DNA from: Candidatus Baltobacteraceae bacterium | GTDB taxonomy: Bacteria; Vulcanimicrobiota; Vulcanimicrobiia; Vulcanimicrobiales; Vulcanimicrobiaceae | DNA: 64,000 nt | Direction: 5' to 3' | Assembly: GCA_036489885.1 (NCBI GenBank) | Contig: DASXEW010000001.1 | Location: 992,001-1,056,000 of the forward strand | Shown here: positions 10,167 through 38,757 of the stretch, in pieces | How the letters are laid out: each line of letters starts with the position of its first letter | How positions within the stretch are numbered: the first letter of the stretch is position 1 | Notes under the pieces: model-generated | What the model was told of the DNA's origin: nothing | What the model saw: only the letters and a program-made list of their open reading frames with translations | The model's database searches: none | Position numbers and translations under genes: made by a program

Positions 10167-10676
10167 TTGGACCTCGCACTATTGCTTGTACGCCTTATCG
10201 GGCTCGGATTCGCCGCCCACGGCGCGCAGAAACTCTTCGGAATGTTCGGCGGCTATGGCTTGGCCGGAACGGGAAGCTTTTTCGAGCAAATCGGATTTCG
10301 CCCCGGACGCGCGTACGCGGCAGCTGCGGGCTTTAGCGAGCTAGCCGGCGGCCTGCTGGTTGCGTTCGGACTCCTCGGCCCCATCGGCCCGATGTTTATC
10401 ATCGTCGTGATGACGACAGCCGCGCTGACCGTGCACGTTCCCAACGGATTCTTCGGCCAGAACAACGGCTACGAGCTCCCACTCGTCTACGGCGGCTTCG
10501 CGTTCTTGCTCGCCTTCACCGGATTTGGGGCCTACAGCTTGGATGCCGTATTCGGCCTCAGCTCCGTCTGGACACCGACGCTCAGTTGGATATTTGTTGC
10601 TCTTGGAATCCTCGGCGGAATCGGCAACACCGCGACGCGCCGAAAAGCGGCAACTCCGGAGGCGGCTGGGAACTAA
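10167..10676 (+). CDS. DoxX family membrane protein
   Basis: 169 aa. Four hydrophobic segments with the DoxX signature LLVRLIGLGFAAHGAQKLFG at the N-terminus, GFSELAGGLLVAFGLLGPIG in the middle and NGYELPLVYGGFAFLLAFTG. DoxX relatives are small membrane proteins linked to thiol or quinone redox stress in several bacteria. That fits control by an HxlR-type redox regulator. The TTG start at 10167 is set by AAGGAGA six bases upstream. The small gene at 10683 follows after 6 bases. Confidence 0.88.
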   Translation: MDLALLLVRLIGLGFAAHGAQKLFGMFGGYGLAGTGSFFEQIGFRPGRAYAAAAGFSELAGGLLVAFGLLGPIGPMFIIVVMTTAALTVHVPNGFFGQNNGYELPLVYGGFAFLLAFTGFGAYSLDAVFGLSSVWTPTLSWIFVALGILGGIGNTATRRKAATPEAAGN

Positions 10677-10682
10677 GGAGAC

Positions 10683-10931
10683 ATGCCCGACGAACGCACA
10701 GACTTTCCAGCCGACAAACTCAATGCCGTCACTCCCAACGATCCCGAAGCGCGAGCTCGCATCGAAGCCTTAAAACGCGAGCTCGCCGCGGATCGCCCGA
10801 CGGCGGCAAACATTCAATCTCACGTCACGGAGCTACGCAAACACGCGTCGCTTCGTGATCTCGTTACCGCATGGTTCGAGAGCCCCCGCACGCAGGCGTT
10901 TATCGAGGAGCTAACGGCGGCCGGTCTGTAG
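10683..10931 (+). CDS. Small acidic helical protein, unknown
   Basis: 82 aa, not recognised. It starts 6 bases after the DoxX gene with AAGGAG at the junction, so it is probably co-transcribed under the HxlR-type repressor. The sequence is soluble and helical, rich in Ala, Glu and Arg (ARARIEALKRELAADRP), and has a C-terminal amphipathic piece (SPRTQAFIEELTAAGL). Its last 21 bases overlap the end of the converging hydro-lyase gene. Confidence 0.6.
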   Translation: MPDERTDFPADKLNAVTPNDPEARARIEALKRELAADRPTAANIQSHVTELRKHASLRDLVTAWFESPRTQAFIEELTAAGL

Positions 10932-11708
10932 CGCCAGCTCCTCGTGATGCATGTCCGTAATGAACATGTGTCCGGGCTCGTGCACGATCACATACGGAAT
11001 GCGGCTTTCGATAGCGACATGCTGCGGCGTGACGCCGCAGCCCCAAAACACCGGGATCTCTCCACGCTCGAGTGTGACTGCGTCGCCCTCGTCGGGATGA
11101 TCGAGACGCCGAATGCCGATGGCTTCGGGGTCGCCCCAATGTACGGGCTCACCGTGCGCAGCGCGATACGGACGCGTGACCTCACGAACGGTTTCAACAT
11201 CTTCCGGCTTGAACGGACGCATGCTGACCACCATATGACCCCACAGACGTCCGGCCGGCATCAATCGCAGCGAGGTGCGGTACATCGGAACGCTCTTTCC
11301 TTCAGCGTGATGTCGCATCGGGAACCCGGCTTGTTCGAGCGCATACTCAAACGTGTACGAGCAACCGATCAAGAACGTAACAAAATCTTCGTGCCAGAGA
11401 TCGAGAATGTCGTGCCGCTTGTCCAGGAGCAAACCTTTACGATAAACGCGGTATTGCGAAAGGTCCGTGCGAATGTCCGCATCCGGCGCACATTGCGGCG
11501 TGAACTTTCCCGGCGGCAGCGTTTCGATCAACGCGCACGGCACGGGATTGCGGGCACAGAGATCGGCCATTTCACCGGCGTGATCGCTCGGAATGACGAC
11601 GAGGTTCGTCTGCACGTACTGCGGCGCAAGACCCGCAGTCGGTCCGTCGTATTCGCCCGAACGAATTGCCGCACGAATCTCCGCCGGCTCGGCTTCACGC
11701 AGATTCAC
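10911..11708 (-). CDS. Putative hydro-lyase, D-glutamate cyclase-like (DUF1445)
   Basis: 265 aa, the usual length of the family. Recognisable blocks are YVQTNLVVIPSDHAGE-like near residue 30, the phrase DFVTFLIGCSYTFEYALEQAG, and near the C-terminus PVFWGCGVTPQHVA and EPGHMFITDM, with the conserved Cys and His. Members are annotated as putative hydro-lyases, and one mammalian homologue is D-glutamate cyclase; the bacterial substrate is generally unproven. The ATG at 11708 overlaps the stop of the next minus-strand gene as ATGA. Confidence 0.86.
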   Translation of the reverse strand: MNLREAEPAEIRAAIRSGEYDGPTAGLAPQYVQTNLVVIPSDHAGEMADLCARNPVPCALIETLPPGKFTPQCAPDADIRTDLSQYRVYRKGLLLDKRHDILDLWHEDFVTFLIGCSYTFEYALEQAGFPMRHHAEGKSVPMYRTSLRLMPAGRLWGHMVVSMRPFKPEDVETVREVTRPYRAAHGEPVHWGDPEAIGIRRLDHPDEGDAVTLERGEIPVFWGCGVTPQHVAIESRIPYVIVHEPGHMFITDMHHEELALQTGRR

Positions 11709-12193
11709 GGAAATGAAGGCACAACGGGAACCGGCGTACGCCGCGGCTGCGGAATGCCTGTCGGCGACGCTCGCGGTGTCGTCAGCGGCTGGGGTGTAAA
11801 GACCATCGTCGGTGCGACGCTCGGATTCGCCGAATTGAACGGCGTCGCCGTCGCCACCGGCGAGGGACCCGGCATTTCAACTGTCACGACTTTTCGTACA
11901 GCGTCAAAGCTTGCGCTTCCCCCGAGATCGCGCACGACCGTTCCCAGTCGCACGTAAATCGTCCCGTCGGCTTCCGCAATTACATCGAGCGGCGTCCTGA
12001 CTACGACACGTTTCCCGTTGCCTTCGAACGTAATGGCAAGGTCCCGCGGATCGATTTGCACGCGTTCTGCGATCCTACGCACGATGGGATCGATCGGGGC
12101 ATAGACGAATCCGTCCGGACTCACCCACGCCGGTTGTGACGACGGTAACGACATACCGCCGAGGACGACCGTGACGACGATGAACGCGATCAC
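11705..12193 (-). CDS. Exported stalk-domain protein (copper amine oxidase N-like)
   Basis: 162 aa from the GTG at 12193, chosen because the longer frame (to 12298) would run through the divergent YihY gene. Residues 1-22 are a signal peptide or membrane anchor (IAFIVVTVVLGGMSLPSSQ). A single stalk domain follows, with the pattern VVVRTPLDVIAEADGTIYVRLGTVVRDLGGSASFD, and VTVEMPG closes it. The last 50 residues are Pro/Thr-rich (RTPVPVVPSFP at the end). Such domains often present or support cell-envelope proteins. Confidence 0.68.
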   Translation of the reverse strand: MIAFIVVTVVLGGMSLPSSQPAWVSPDGFVYAPIDPIVRRIAERVQIDPRDLAITFEGNGKRVVVRTPLDVIAEADGTIYVRLGTVVRDLGGSASFDAVRKVVTVEMPGPSPVATATPFNSANPSVAPTMVFTPQPLTTPRASPTGIPQPRRTPVPVVPSFP

Positions 12194-12213
12194 TTCGGGA
12201 CGAATACGTCCCG

Positions 12214-13038
12214 GTGCGGCGATTGATCGGCATCCTGCGTGCAGCCGGCGTCCGTTTTTCCCGCGATGGATGCGCGTTTCTCGCCCAAGCACTGGCATAC
12301 AATGCTGTCTTTGCCATGATTCCGCTCGGGTTGCTCGCGATCGCGGTCTTCGGCTTCATCTTCGGCTCGCAAGACGGTCAGGATCTCGTGCTCTCGACGA
12401 TCGATGACGTCGCTCCGGCGTTGCACGATCTCTTGGCCGACAACCTCAAGAACGCAATCGCCGTGCGCGGTATCTCGGGCGCAATCGCCGTCGTCGCGCT
12501 CATATGGTCCGGCAAGAATCTCTTTCAAGGTTTGGCGTTCGCTCTCAACCGTGCGCTGAACGTACCGGCCGGCCGACCGCTGGTTCACGACATTGCATTG
12601 GCGATCGTCATGCTTCCGGCGATGGGACTGCTCTTACTGCTCTCGACGTTTGTCCCGCCGGCGGTAACCTACCTCGCGCACGCCGGAGGCTTTTCATCGC
12701 CGGTCCTCGCGCAGCTTACAGCGTTCGGCGTATCGATCTTTTTGATCTTCGTCGTGGCTGCTACGCTCTATCGGTTCTTGCCGAATCGCAAGCTGCCGTG
12801 GAGTTTCGGGATCTCCGGGGCGATCTTTACGGCCATCGCATACGAGGTCGCTCAGATTGCGTTCACGATTTTCACCGCGCGTACGAATCTCTTTCACGTC
12901 TATGGCGCGCTTTCGACTGTCCTCGCGTTACTGCTCTGGTTCTATCTCTTAGGCAACATCTTCTTATATGGTGCCGAAATCAGCGCGGTAGGGCTCGAAG
13001 AGGGGGCTCCGCCGCTCTTGGGGACGAATACGCAATAG
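12214..13038 (+). CDS. YihY/BrkB family inner-membrane protein
   Basis: 274 aa with six membrane segments. The family pattern is clear: GCAFLAQALAYNAVFAMIPL near the N-terminus, then IWSGKNLFQGLAFALNRALN, and the C-terminal LLWFYLLGNIFLYGAEISAV. The family was once called RNase BN but is a membrane protein of uncertain role. GTG start at 12214; the stop TAG shares a base with the GTG of the next gene. It is divergent from the stalk-domain gene with only about 20 bases between. Confidence 0.85.
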   Translation: MRRLIGILRAAGVRFSRDGCAFLAQALAYNAVFAMIPLGLLAIAVFGFIFGSQDGQDLVLSTIDDVAPALHDLLADNLKNAIAVRGISGAIAVVALIWSGKNLFQGLAFALNRALNVPAGRPLVHDIALAIVMLPAMGLLLLLSTFVPPAVTYLAHAGGFSSPVLAQLTAFGVSIFLIFVVAATLYRFLPNRKLPWSFGISGAIFTAIAYEVAQIAFTIFTARTNLFHVYGALSTVLALLLWFYLLGNIFLYGAEISAVGLEEGAPPLLGTNTQ

Positions 13039-20136: not shown

Positions 20137-20508
20137 ATGAGCTTCAATATATTGGGCGCCCTCTCGGGCGCCGCTCAAGGGTTTGCAGTAGGCGGACCGG
20201 GCGGCGCAGTCGCGGGCGCGATTGGTGGCGGCGTCTTGGGCAGCGGCGACCCGATTTCCACGACCGGGAACGTCGGAAACGGCATCCTCTCGGGTTGGGA
20301 GAGCAACGTGCTTGGTCAGCAAGACGCACTGAACGAGCAAATGGCCTATTTTCAGCTCGGCGTCCAAAAGCAAGCCAACCAATTCGACATGATGACGGAC
20401 GAGAAATCGGAGCTACAGCGCGAGTCCAACACGTTGCGCGAAGTCTCGATGGAGCAGCGCAAAGCGGACATCGGCATCATGAAAGAGTTCATCCGATCGA
20501 TCGGCTAA
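20137..20508 (+). CDS. Small Gly-rich/helical protein A, paralogue of the next gene
   Basis: 123 aa, family not recognised. GAGGGG lies just before the ATG. Residues 1-40 form a Gly/Ala-rich hydrophobic segment with small-residue packing motifs (FAVGGPGGAVAGAIGGGVLG). Residues 72-122 are a helical module (QANQFDMMTDEKSELQRE, ending MKEFIRSIG). That module aligns without gaps to the last 51 residues of the next gene, at about 21 of 51 identical positions. The stop overlaps the next start as TAATG, so both are made together. The Gly-rich N-terminus could insert in a membrane or form an assembly. Confidence 0.65.
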   Translation: MSFNILGALSGAAQGFAVGGPGGAVAGAIGGGVLGSGDPISTTGNVGNGILSGWESNVLGQQDALNEQMAYFQLGVQKQANQFDMMTDEKSELQRESNTLREVSMEQRKADIGIMKEFIRSIG

Positions 20509-20801
20509 TGCGAGCGGCGCCCGCCGCTCCGCCCGCCCCGGCTCCAGCTTCGAACGTCGCGACGCCGGCTCCACGCCGTCCCACGCCCCGTGCGCGTACG
20601 ACGGACGGCGTCGATCAGAGCGGCAACACCGCGCAGCAAAGCGAGATTCAACTCGCACTCGCTGCACAAGCCGCGCGTTTCGATGCGATGATGAAGGTTC
20701 TCGCGGAGCAGCAGCGCGAGATCAACGCCATCATCGATCTTGGTATGGCGCAAACGAAACGCGACGATCAGCTCATGAACGAGTGGATCCGGCTGATCTA
20801 G
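20508..20801 (+). CDS. Small helical protein B with Pro/Ala-rich N-terminus
   Basis: 97 aa, not recognised. The ATG at 20508 overlaps the upstream stop (TAATG). Residues 1-35 are Ala/Pro-rich and basic (PAPRRPTPRARTT), probably disordered. Residues 46-97 form one long helix-prone module (ARFDAMMKVLAEQQREINA, ending MNEWIRLI) that matches the end of protein A. The pair thus looks like a duplication with different N-terminal pieces. The 3' end overlaps the converging TPR/ATP-grasp gene by 29 bases. Confidence 0.62.
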   Translation: MRAAPAAPPAPAPASNVATPAPRRPTPRARTTDGVDQSGNTAQQSEIQLALAAQAARFDAMMKVLAEQQREINAIIDLGMAQTKRDDQLMNEWIRLI

Positions 20802-23242: not shown

Positions 23243-23319
23243 TGGTGGGCCATCGTGGGTTCGAACCACGGACCTCATGCTTATCAAGCATGCGCTCTAA
23301 CCAGCTGAGCTAATGGCCC
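23243..23319 (-). tRNA. tRNA-Ile (GAT)
   Basis: 77 bases including the encoded CCA. The acceptor stem GGGCCAT pairs with ATGGCCC, the anticodon loop is CTTGATAAG (anticodon GAT), and the T arm has GGTTCGAACC. It is transcribed away from the two tRNA-Ala genes. It lies 21 bases upstream of the GTG start of the Ldh-type gene, so the two may share a transcript. Confidence 0.96.
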
Positions 23320-23337
23320 TCGTTTTCTCGGCGGCTT

Positions 23338-23367
23338 ATCGTAAATTGCAGCCGTCGTCGATGTCAA
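23338..23367 (-). promoter_or_regulatory. Promoter of tRNA-Ile
   Basis: On the minus strand TTGACA (23367-23362) is followed after 18 bases by TACGAT (23343-23338). The -35 box is a perfect match. The predicted transcript would begin about 10 bases before the tRNA's 5' end at 23319. Confidence 0.5.
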
Positions 23368-23422
23368 CGGGTCAAACCGGAGGTCCTGCCCGTCGAAGGG
23401 ATAATACGACGACGCCGCTCGC

Positions 23423-23498
23423 GGGGATGTAGCTCAGTTGGTAGAGCACCTGCTTTGCAAGCAGGGGGTCAGGAGTTCGAATCTCCTCATCTCCACCA
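23423..23498 (+). tRNA. tRNA-Ala (TGC)
   Basis: 76 bases with encoded CCA. Acceptor GGGGATG pairs with CATCTCC (one G-T), the anticodon stem-loop is CCTGC-TTTGCAA-GCAGG (anticodon TGC), and the T loop is TTCGAAT. It is followed after 10 bases by a second tRNA-Ala. Confidence 0.96.
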
Positions 23499-23508
23499 AG
23501 CCGGATCT

Positions 23509-23584
23509 GGGGGCATAGCTCAGTTGGTAGAGCATCACGCTGGCAGCGTGAGGGTCAGGAGTTCGAGTCTCCTTGCCTCCACCA
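23509..23584 (+). tRNA. tRNA-Ala (GGC)
   Basis: 76 bases with encoded CCA. Acceptor GGGGGCA pairs with TGCCTCC, and the anticodon stem-loop is TCACG-CTGGCAG-CGTGA (anticodon GGC). It reads the GCC codon, frequent in this GC-rich genome. Most likely co-transcribed with the TGC isoacceptor. Confidence 0.96.
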
Positions 23585-23707: not shown

Positions 23708-24856
23708 GTGAGCGGTATTAGTGGCTTAGGCAGTAGTAGCCTTACCTCGCTTTATAGCTTCCAGCAAAGCTTACTGCAGTCGGGTAACCAGCTTTCATCC
23801 GGTAACCGGATAACGTCGGCGGCGGTGGATCCGTCGGGCCTTGCAATCTTCAACGCGCTCGAGGCGCAGGCGTCTGGATTCGACCAGGGCTCGCTCAACG
23901 CGCAAGATGCGCTGAACGCTACGAACGTCGCTGAAGGCGGCGCGCAATCGATCACCGGCATCCTCGGGAGCCTGAACACCGAATCGGTGGCAGCTTCGAA
24001 CGATCTGCTCTCCCCGTCGGATCAGCAAGATATTCAAGCCCAAGCGAATCAGCAGATTCAGCAGATCAACACGATCGCGCAGAACACGAATTTCAACGGC
24101 GTAAACCTGCTCCAAGGTCAATTCGCCGGAACGCAAGCAGCGACGCCCGCAAGTTCGGCCGTCACGAACAACGATCTTCTGCTGAGCAGCGGCAACAGCG
24201 TCATCAACACGAGCGCCGGAATCACGACGCCCGCGACGACGCCCGGCCAATCGATTCAAGTCTCGGTCAGCGCCGGCCAAGCTCAAGTCAATCTCGTCGA
24301 CGACGCCACCGGTAACGTCACCAACGTCGGCTCGTTCTCGTCCGGCTCAGCCGTGACGGCGGGCGGCGTGTCGTTCACGCTGGGCAACTTCAGCAGCACC
24401 GACACGGGCTCCGCGACGATCGACGTAACGGGCGCGACCAGCTTCTCTGCCGGCAATTCGCTGACGGTGCAAACCGGTGCGAACCAAGGCGCGACAACGC
24501 AGCTGAACTTCAGCAACCTGTCGTCATCGTCGCTGGGCGTTTCGAACCTTGATTTCGGAACGACCGCAAATGCCGAAAGCAGCATCGGCGTCATCGGCAA
24601 CGCGCTCAACTCCGTGCTCTCGGCTCAGGCACAGCTTGGTGCGCAAGCCACGTCGCTGCAAAATCAGATCAACTCGAACAATATCGCTTCGACGAATCTC
24701 ACCGCGTCGGCATCGTCAATCGGCGATACGAACGTTCCGAACACCGTCAACACTTTCAACAAGAGCATCGAGCAAAGTTTGATTTCGCTCGACGTTCTGC
24801 GCGGCGCAAACGCCAGCCAAGGATTTCTGTCCGCCGGCCTTTTCGGTTCGGCCTAG
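23708..24856 (+). CDS. Flagellin-type protein
   Basis: 382 aa, GTG start with AAGGAGG 8 bases upstream. The N-terminal coiled-coil pattern of flagellin is present (FQQSLLQSGNQLSSGNRITS, then PSGLAIFNALEAQ, NTNFNGVNLLQG). The C-terminal helical part is too (QAQLGAQATSLQNQINSNN, then NKSIEQSLISLDVLRGANA). The middle, about residues 140-290, is Ser/Thr/Gly-rich and lacks Cys, as in variable surface domains. The usual RINSAKDDAAG motif is changed to RITSAAVDPSG. No other flagellar gene is in the window. A weak GCCGATTT (23654) resembles a sigma-28 -10 box, but no -35 is seen. Confidence 0.85.
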   Translation: MSGISGLGSSSLTSLYSFQQSLLQSGNQLSSGNRITSAAVDPSGLAIFNALEAQASGFDQGSLNAQDALNATNVAEGGAQSITGILGSLNTESVAASNDLLSPSDQQDIQAQANQQIQQINTIAQNTNFNGVNLLQGQFAGTQAATPASSAVTNNDLLLSSGNSVINTSAGITTPATTPGQSIQVSVSAGQAQVNLVDDATGNVTNVGSFSSGSAVTAGGVSFTLGNFSSTDTGSATIDVTGATSFSAGNSLTVQTGANQGATTQLNFSNLSSSSLGVSNLDFGTTANAESSIGVIGNALNSVLSAQAQLGAQATSLQNQINSNNIASTNLTASASSIGDTNVPNTVNTFNKSIEQSLISLDVLRGANASQGFLSAGLFGSA

Positions 24857-24896: not shown

Positions 24897-25249
24897 GCGG
24901 AGCTCGCCGGATCATCGCGCGCGCCGAACGGCGCGTGAGGAAAGTCCGGGCTCCTATGGGCAAGGGTGCAGGATAACGTCCTGTCGAGGTAACTCGAAGG
25001 AAAGTGCCACAGAAACATACCGCCGGGCAACCGGTAAGGGTGAAATCGTGAGGTAAGAGCTCACGGAGCACCGCGGTGACGCGGGCTCGGGTAAACCCCA
25101 CCTGGAGCAAGATCGCTCGAATACCCCTTCGGGGGCGGTGCCCAACCGCACGAGCAACATCGCACCGAGCTCACCGGTAACGGTGAACCCAGAGAGATGA
25201 TGATCCCCGGCTTCGCCGGGACAGAATCCGGCTTATAGGCGAGCTCCGC
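24897..25249 (+). ncRNA. rnpB: RNase P RNA, bacterial type A
   Basis: About 353 bases. P1 is formed by GCGGAGCTCGCC (24897) and GGCGAGCTCCGC (25238-25249). Universal core segments are in order: GAGGAAAGTCCGGGCTC, CAGGATAACGTCCTG, GAAGGAAAGTGCCACAGAAA, GGTAAGGGTGAAA, GGAGCAAGATCG, then AGAGAGATGATGATCCCCGG and ACAGAATCCGGCTTATAG. With RnpA it processes the 5' ends of tRNA precursors, including the three just upstream. It starts only 40 bases after the flagellin gene. Confidence 0.97.
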
Positions 25250-25317
25250 GTATCTCGAAACCGAGTGGCTGCCGCAAGCGTCTTAAGGCAGAGAGATTTC
25301 TCTAGTGGGGTGACCTC

Positions 25318-38671: not shown

Positions 38672-38757
38672 GGGGGAGTGGCGGAACGGTCTACGCAGTC
38701 GCCTCAAAAGCGACCGGGTGAAAGCCCTTGTGGGTTCAAATCCCACCTCCCCCACCA
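38672..38757 (+). tRNA. tRNA-Leu (CAA)
   Basis: 86 bases with encoded CCA. Acceptor GGGGGAG pairs with CTCCCCC; the anticodon stem GTCGC/GCGAC encloses CTCAAAA (anticodon CAA, reads TTG). A long variable arm (CCGGGTGAAAGCCC) confirms the class II type. The T arm is GTGGGTTCAAATCCCAC. It stands alone between the esterase and the methyltransferase-like gene. Confidence 0.95.

Follow-up and report, generated by a model that had tools for sequence, protein, structure and literature searches.

We establish here that two small adjacent genes, A and B, are duplicates of one another, overlap, are conserved across the class Eremiobacteria, and are linked to an SLT-type lytic transglycosylase (LT) by a shared locus, joint loss and in-frame joining. 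They form an unnamed protein family pair, nearly universal in a class of little-known soil bacteria represented mostly by metagenomes, that is tied here to a peptidoglycan-cutting enzyme. Judging from sequence, the pair probably helps something cross the cell envelope. In our preferred reading, which is tentative and to which we assign a probability of roughly 0.4, A and B would form a helical assembly working at the envelope in concert with LT.

Overlapping genes with a shared helical module

The window, the whole 64,000-nucleotide stretch of DNA that was analysed, encodes A (20137..20508, forward strand; 123 aa) as a Gly/Ala-rich N-terminal segment followed by a long predicted helix, and B (20508..20801, forward strand; 97 aa) as a Pro/Ala-rich, non-helical N-terminus followed by one helix (residues 40-96). 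The stop codon of A overlaps the start codon of B in the motif TAATG (20506..20510, forward strand); the lengths, coordinates and overlap given in the initial annotation all proved correct on re-checking. The helical module shared by the two proteins (20350..20502 in A and 20649..20798 in B, both forward strand) aligns A72-122 with B47-97 over 51 gapless columns with 21 identities, leaving Gly123 as one extra residue of A. Three approaches agreed on this similarity, which had been noted earlier at about 21 identities: the local alignment scored 93 against 49 for the best of 5,000 shuffles, BLASTP of window A against window B gave E 2e-6, and hhalign of the A family profile against the B family profile gave a probability of 99.0 and E 2.9e-18. 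The motifs reported with it (FDxM, QRExN, MxQxKxD and ExIR) are all found in both modules.

The genome that contains the window is related to Candidatus Eremiobacterota, and we compared relatives in three families: f1, the family of the window; f2, the other family of the same order; and f3, a further family of the class. A tree of 75 modules over 53 columns, weakly resolved inside and built with the reversed A fragment of locus L092 left out, separates the 35 B modules from the 35 A and 5 single modules with split support of 100/99, indicating one duplication before the split of f1 and f2. The single gene of f3 groups with A. On the evidence of the module sequences, A and B arose by one ancient gene duplication and B is a single clade. 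Loss of the similarity in homologues, or conservation of only one of the two genes in relatives, would have counted against the initial view; within f1 and f2 neither is the case, whereas f3 has a single gene.

The single duplication in the tree, the distinct N-termini in relatives' pairs and the helix models of both proteins bear out the initial view of one duplicated helical module attached to two different N-terminal parts. In the B model, residues 40-96 form one 57-residue helix (pLDDT ~98), and the Pro/Ala-rich residues 1-39 (20508..20624, forward strand) are low-confidence and non-helical. In the A model, whose mean pLDDT is only 63, one long helix follows two short Gly-rich ones, and at this confidence just the helical nature of A is usable. 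The two short helices fall in the moderately hydrophobic Gly/Ala-rich segment (approximately residues 1-38; 20137..20250, forward strand); lineages differ widely in the length of this N-terminal part, whose Gly/Ala-rich character is shared by f1 and f2. The 19-residue mean Kyte-Doolittle hydropathy of A reaches 1.6, the transmembrane threshold used here, in 2 of 37 proteins, with most at 1.0-1.5 and window A peaking at 1.37. The N-termini are thus as different in composition as first described, but the label 'membrane-like' given to that of A is only partly right.

Both genes are under purifying selection between the window and its congener G001, with dN/dS of 0.128/1.478 for A and 0.239/0.953 for B, comparable to yceD (0.194/1.211) and fabG (0.159/0.939). 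Within the databases searched (Pfam, PHROGs, NCBIfam, PADLOC and PDB), neither A nor B fits a described family, in agreement with the initial annotation, which knew of none. The A proteins gave weak matches to glycine-zipper/OmpA-type proteins (PdsO, 7/37, best 3.7e-6), to two phage families without an assigned function (9/37, best 3.9e-5; 8/37, best 8e-5), and to tape measure (3/37, best 3.6e-4), T7_gp14 (2/37, best 0.0074), DNA-ejection pilot (2/37, best 0.081) and type III translocon (2/37, best 0.0054) proteins, matches of a composition-prone kind that Gly-rich sequence yields. A fold search of a viral structure library with the A model returned nothing at E 0.001, and no significant sequence or structure match of A to any ejection or pore protein was found across Pfam, PDB, PHROGs and viral structures.

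Distribution and chromosomal setting

A profile built from 37 A proteins detected A in 98 of the phylum's 149 genomes, including 97 of the 117 genomes of the class (80/99 in f1, 3/4 in f2 and 14/14 in f3), with one marginal match outside the class (E 5.7e-4). Named records with A are nearly all labelled Candidatus Eremiobacterota or an unclassified 'bacterium'. An outlying match in G058 was rejected because it covers just a Gly-rich stretch in a protein of 184 aa (L082). Among the paper titles listed in literature searches on these bacteria, none concerns the A-B pair or the flagellin-less machine discussed below, although a description inside a paper could be missed by such a search.

We examined gene order in 41 loci, comprising the window and 40 fetched loci; further loci came partly from the same genomes and were excluded from the counts. 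A is followed by B in 34 loci, lies at a contig end in 1 and occurs as a single gene in 5 (all f3), and the remaining locus, which had been fetched for a weak hit, has no match to either protein. In f1 and f2, B almost always comes after A, and in f3 there is a single A-like gene. The start codon of the B frame overlaps the A stop by one or four bases in 23 of the 34 pairs, with no overlap in the other 11; gene calls in relatives were made by a simple codon-usage script, not a standard gene caller. In most f1 and f2 loci that cover this flank, A-B is divergent from yceD-rpmF-fabH-fabD-fabG-acpP-ffh-rpsP-khpA-rimM. The f3 neighbourhood differs, with the single gene beside the gene for ribosomal protein L31 (one locus scanned). 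The converging TPR/ATP-grasp gene of the window, for which a modification role had been mentioned as speculation, is matched in none of the 40 relatives' loci, and PADLOC was empty; we rejected it as a modifying partner, and it is a chance neighbour of the pair.

Several loci show changes in or near the pair. A is a recurrent insertion site, and integrated elements interrupt it near conserved QRK codons (L115, 6456-8320; L159, 10010-17269; L145, 6494-6856; L152, 9947-10309), so that A is disrupted in some genomes. The elements in L115 and L159 carry serine-recombinase-like genes that are ~35% identical to each other. A second B copy lies near the pair in L080 (G012; 10339-12217) and a reversed A fragment in L092 (G009; 10436-10582), both signs of rearrangement at this locus. 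Elsewhere in the window, a flagellin-like open reading frame ~3 kb downstream of the pair (23708-24856) matches Flagellin_N at 1e-23 and Flagellin_C below cut-off, and lacks homologues in the genes called at 95 other loci, some of them from the same genomes. The window also contains an RNase P class A RNA gene and four tRNA genes (24899-25251; 23246-23581; 38672-38754).

A lytic transglycosylase upstream of A

The initial annotation had suggested looking for conserved neighbours of the pair, and the partner that shows up is LT, a protein of ~200-290 aa encoded between yceD and A in most f1 loci, typically directly upstream of A and overlapping it by one base in L116. At a cut-off of E 1e-20, LT is present in 78 of the 149 phylum genomes, all of them in f1 (f1 78/99, f2 0/4, f3 0/14). 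Two LT proteins scanned against Pfam matched the SLT family with 36.8 and 36.0 bits (E 3.2e-9 and 5.7e-9) against a gathering score of 21.3. Among 26 strong LT copies, AAQE and the YN and G of ALxxYNxG are invariant; the Glu of AAQE and the Y, N and G of this AYNAG-type motif are residues that we take to be catalytic. Hydropathy revealed no signal-like N-terminus in any of the 26.

LT and A tend to be kept or lost together. A count by script across the 99 f1 genomes gave 73 with both, 7 with A only, 5 with LT only and 14 with neither, for a P of 2.4e-8 that is inflated and partly confounded by broken assemblies and the adjacency of the two genes. Restricting a count by hand to high-quality f1 genomes gave 42, 5, 3 and 5, respectively (P 0.003). 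The five genomes with LT only include one in which LT is disrupted (G084) and some in which the locus lies at a contig edge, for example G021 and G127. In 5 loci, representing 4 genomes and ~2 lineages, the SLT domain and A share one open frame (L098 and L121 from the same genome, L136, L137, and L142, which has an ambiguous base between the SLT domain and A); an internal ATG remains in these joined frames, so separate proteins could still arise. Position upstream, joint loss and in-frame joining together indicate that LT belongs with A.

The association is not universal. A occurs without LT in 7 of the 80 A-positive f1 genomes, namely both members of the window's genus and G029, G022, G011, G032 and G126. 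All f2 and f3 genomes are without LT, and they keep A except in one f2 genome. This pattern suggests that A-B can dispense with LT or use another transglycosylase.

Possible roles at the envelope and comparison with known systems

In our preferred reading, A and B would be the subunits of a single helical assembly in which the shared module makes up a hetero-oligomeric coiled coil, and translational coupling would allow them to be made in balance. A would bring a Gly-rich segment for insertion into, or packing against, the membrane, and B would contribute a flexible Pro/Ala tail. The assembly would work with the signal-peptide-less LT, whose cutting of peptidoglycan would leave the envelope breached or remodelled; LT itself would presumably be exported or released to reach the wall. 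In the window's genus, where LT is lost, another transglycosylase may stand in, or A and B may act alone. Several points speak against this reading, including the low confidence of the A model, the lack of a significant match to ejection or pore proteins, the confounding of joint absence and the internal ATG in the joined frames, all described above. In addition, A falls below a usual transmembrane hydropathy threshold in 35 of 37 proteins, the A-positive genomes listed above (7/80 in f1 and all those of f2 and f3) lack LT, and integrated elements disrupt the A gene in some genomes.

An export machine encoded elsewhere in these genomes offers the likeliest of the alternatives. Most genomes of the class carry a second FHIPEP protein (~610-730 bits), either in addition to flagellar FlhA (~850 bits) or in its place. 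The cluster that encodes it, here called T3SS2, contains flgB, flgC, fliE, fliF, fliH, fliI, an SLT gene, a flgF/G-like gene, fliM, fliN, fliP, fliQ, fliR, flhB and flhA, with a methylenetetrahydrofolate-reductase-like gene between fliP and fliQ; eight of the proteins were named by Pfam and the rest by similarity and position. Separate from the flagellar FlhA locus, conserved across the class and found in flagellin-less genomes too, T3SS2 looks like a filament-less, flagellum-derived machine. The clusters lie in L105 and L172 (contigs C4 and C3 of the window's genome), L106/L173, L174 and L107/L171. G103 holds two full-length second-type FHIPEP genes (contigs C53 and C188), and L178 (G005) retains a fliP fragment with a stop and fliI pieces but no flhA, with LT and A absent as well. 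Flagellin was detected in 23 of 60 relatives, and 29 of the 60 have A but no flagellin; on that ground we rejected A as a part of the flagellum itself, including a filament or hook component, which would be expected only with flagellin-bearing flagella.

It is conceivable, though unlikely, that A and B, along with LT, serve T3SS2 as distal parts, translocon or early substrates, with LT opening the wall; in other type III systems, transglycosylases beside needle or rod genes do so. Many of the genomes with this machine have no flagellin, so a distal part is unaccounted for; a machine without a filament has no known distal end, which makes LT-A-B a candidate. Besides the presence of the cluster in most class genomes, LT, A and B are without recognisable Sec signals by inspection and hydropathy, G005 combines a decayed cluster with loss of both LT and A, and two genomes without T3SS2 show changes at the other locus: an in-frame stop in LT (G106) and, in A, a nearly invariant Leu replaced by Pro (G025). 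Against this, co-occurrence of A and T3SS2 is not significant in 70 high-quality class genomes counted by hand (56 with both, 5 with A alone, 7 with T3SS2 alone and 2 with neither; P 0.22). G087, which gave a weak match, and G093, whose only match was flagellar, were scored as lacking T3SS2; counting the fragmentary G119 among the T3SS2-lacking genomes or not gives P 0.27 versus 0.22. A is retained without T3SS2 in G025, G106 and G112, and T3SS2 without A in G006, G073 and G084. Moreover, the A-B locus and the T3SS2 cluster are separate in the loci read, profile comparison shows no relation between A and T3SS2 FliE, and in most genomes an SLT gene of its own is part of the cluster. For this last reason we also rejected the idea that LT moves between the two loci. 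Used as a phylum-wide query, the T3SS2 SLT protein matched in 149 of 149 genomes and was non-discriminating.

A fuller version of this reading, which we consider slightly less probable again, would make LT-A-B part of an undescribed secretion machine, flagellum-derived but flagellin-less, that is conserved throughout Eremiobacteria, including a cultured non-flagellated member; LT-A-B would supply its wall-crossing enzyme and the end that lies outside the cell or inserts into the membrane. The published description of Vulcanimicrobium alpinus WC8-2 reports no flagella, no flagellin gene and the presence of type IV pili (PMC9758169). We infer that G008, which carries both T3SS2 and LT-A-B, is this strain, a cultured member of the class, so that the function of A-B can be tested. 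If the pair does belong to the flagellin-less machine, it would reveal how that machine is finished outside the cell.

About as doubtful as that fuller version is the view that LT-A-B is a domesticated phage part, either a lysis cassette of endolysin (LT), holin-like A and soluble antagonist B or a piece of a tape-measure or ejection apparatus. LT does resemble phage SLT proteins at the level of its domain, matching a lytic tail protein (2.9e-11) and an internal virion protein with an endolysin domain (3.4e-9), and it is 39% identical to SPbeta-group phage proteins annotated as transglycosylase or tape measure; the Gly-rich and helical architecture of A, together with its weak matches to T7_gp14, tape measure and DNA-ejection pilot proteins, points the same way. 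These weak matches, however, are of the kind that Gly-rich composition gives, and a tblastn search of 50,697 phage records with two A proteins as queries returned nothing at E 1. The lone IMG/VR match of A is host flank beside an integrated element, the position beside yceD-fabH is conserved in f1 and f2, and few A proteins (2/37) pass the transmembrane threshold expected of a holin-like protein.

We regard as improbable a role of A-B as a cytoplasmic scaffold or regulator of the neighbouring fatty-acid and ribosome genes. The conserved divergent position beside yceD-rpmF-fabH-fabD-fabG-acpP would favour such a role, but the f3 gene sits elsewhere, beside the ribosomal-protein-L31 gene and others, the LT partner does not fit, and searches of Pfam and PDB found no DNA-binding family for A or B. 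That A and B resemble each other by chance coiled-coil composition and not by homology is already refuted: both helices are Glu/Gln/Lys-rich, but 0 of 5,000 shuffles reach the observed score, the same columns are conserved in both families and the tree has a single split.

Compared with known systems, A and B are small tandem helical proteins like WXG100/ESX pairs; no WXG100 match over cut-off was found in 60 relatives, or for A or B in Pfam, and this assignment was rejected. Holin-endolysin(-antiholin) cassettes likewise combine a wall enzyme without a signal peptide with two small proteins that share a domain, one more hydrophobic and one soluble. Here, in contrast, A is mostly below transmembrane hydropathy and the A-B locus is chromosomal and widely conserved. 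Type III secretion needle and inner-rod pairs can adjoin a transglycosylase, and they resemble A-B as two small, related, tandem helical proteins with differing N-termini, in genomes that hold a flagellar-type export machine. They differ in that the B module is modelled as one long helix with no hairpin, in that A-B lies outside the export cluster in the loci read and in that LT has no Sec signal by hydropathy; no needle or rod family stands among the Pfam and PDB matches listed for the members searched. Phage tape-measure and internal virion proteins with SLT domains, families that LT matches, join the SLT domain to Gly-rich and long helical parts, whereas here these parts are spread over three host genes at a conserved chromosomal locus, with no phage relative of A at E 1 (two queries). 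As no phage homologue of A was found, we draw this last comparison for how the envelope assembly may work and not as a claim of membership: A, B and LT would act much as phage ejection and tape-measure proteins do, by bringing an SLT domain together with Gly-rich and helical parts.
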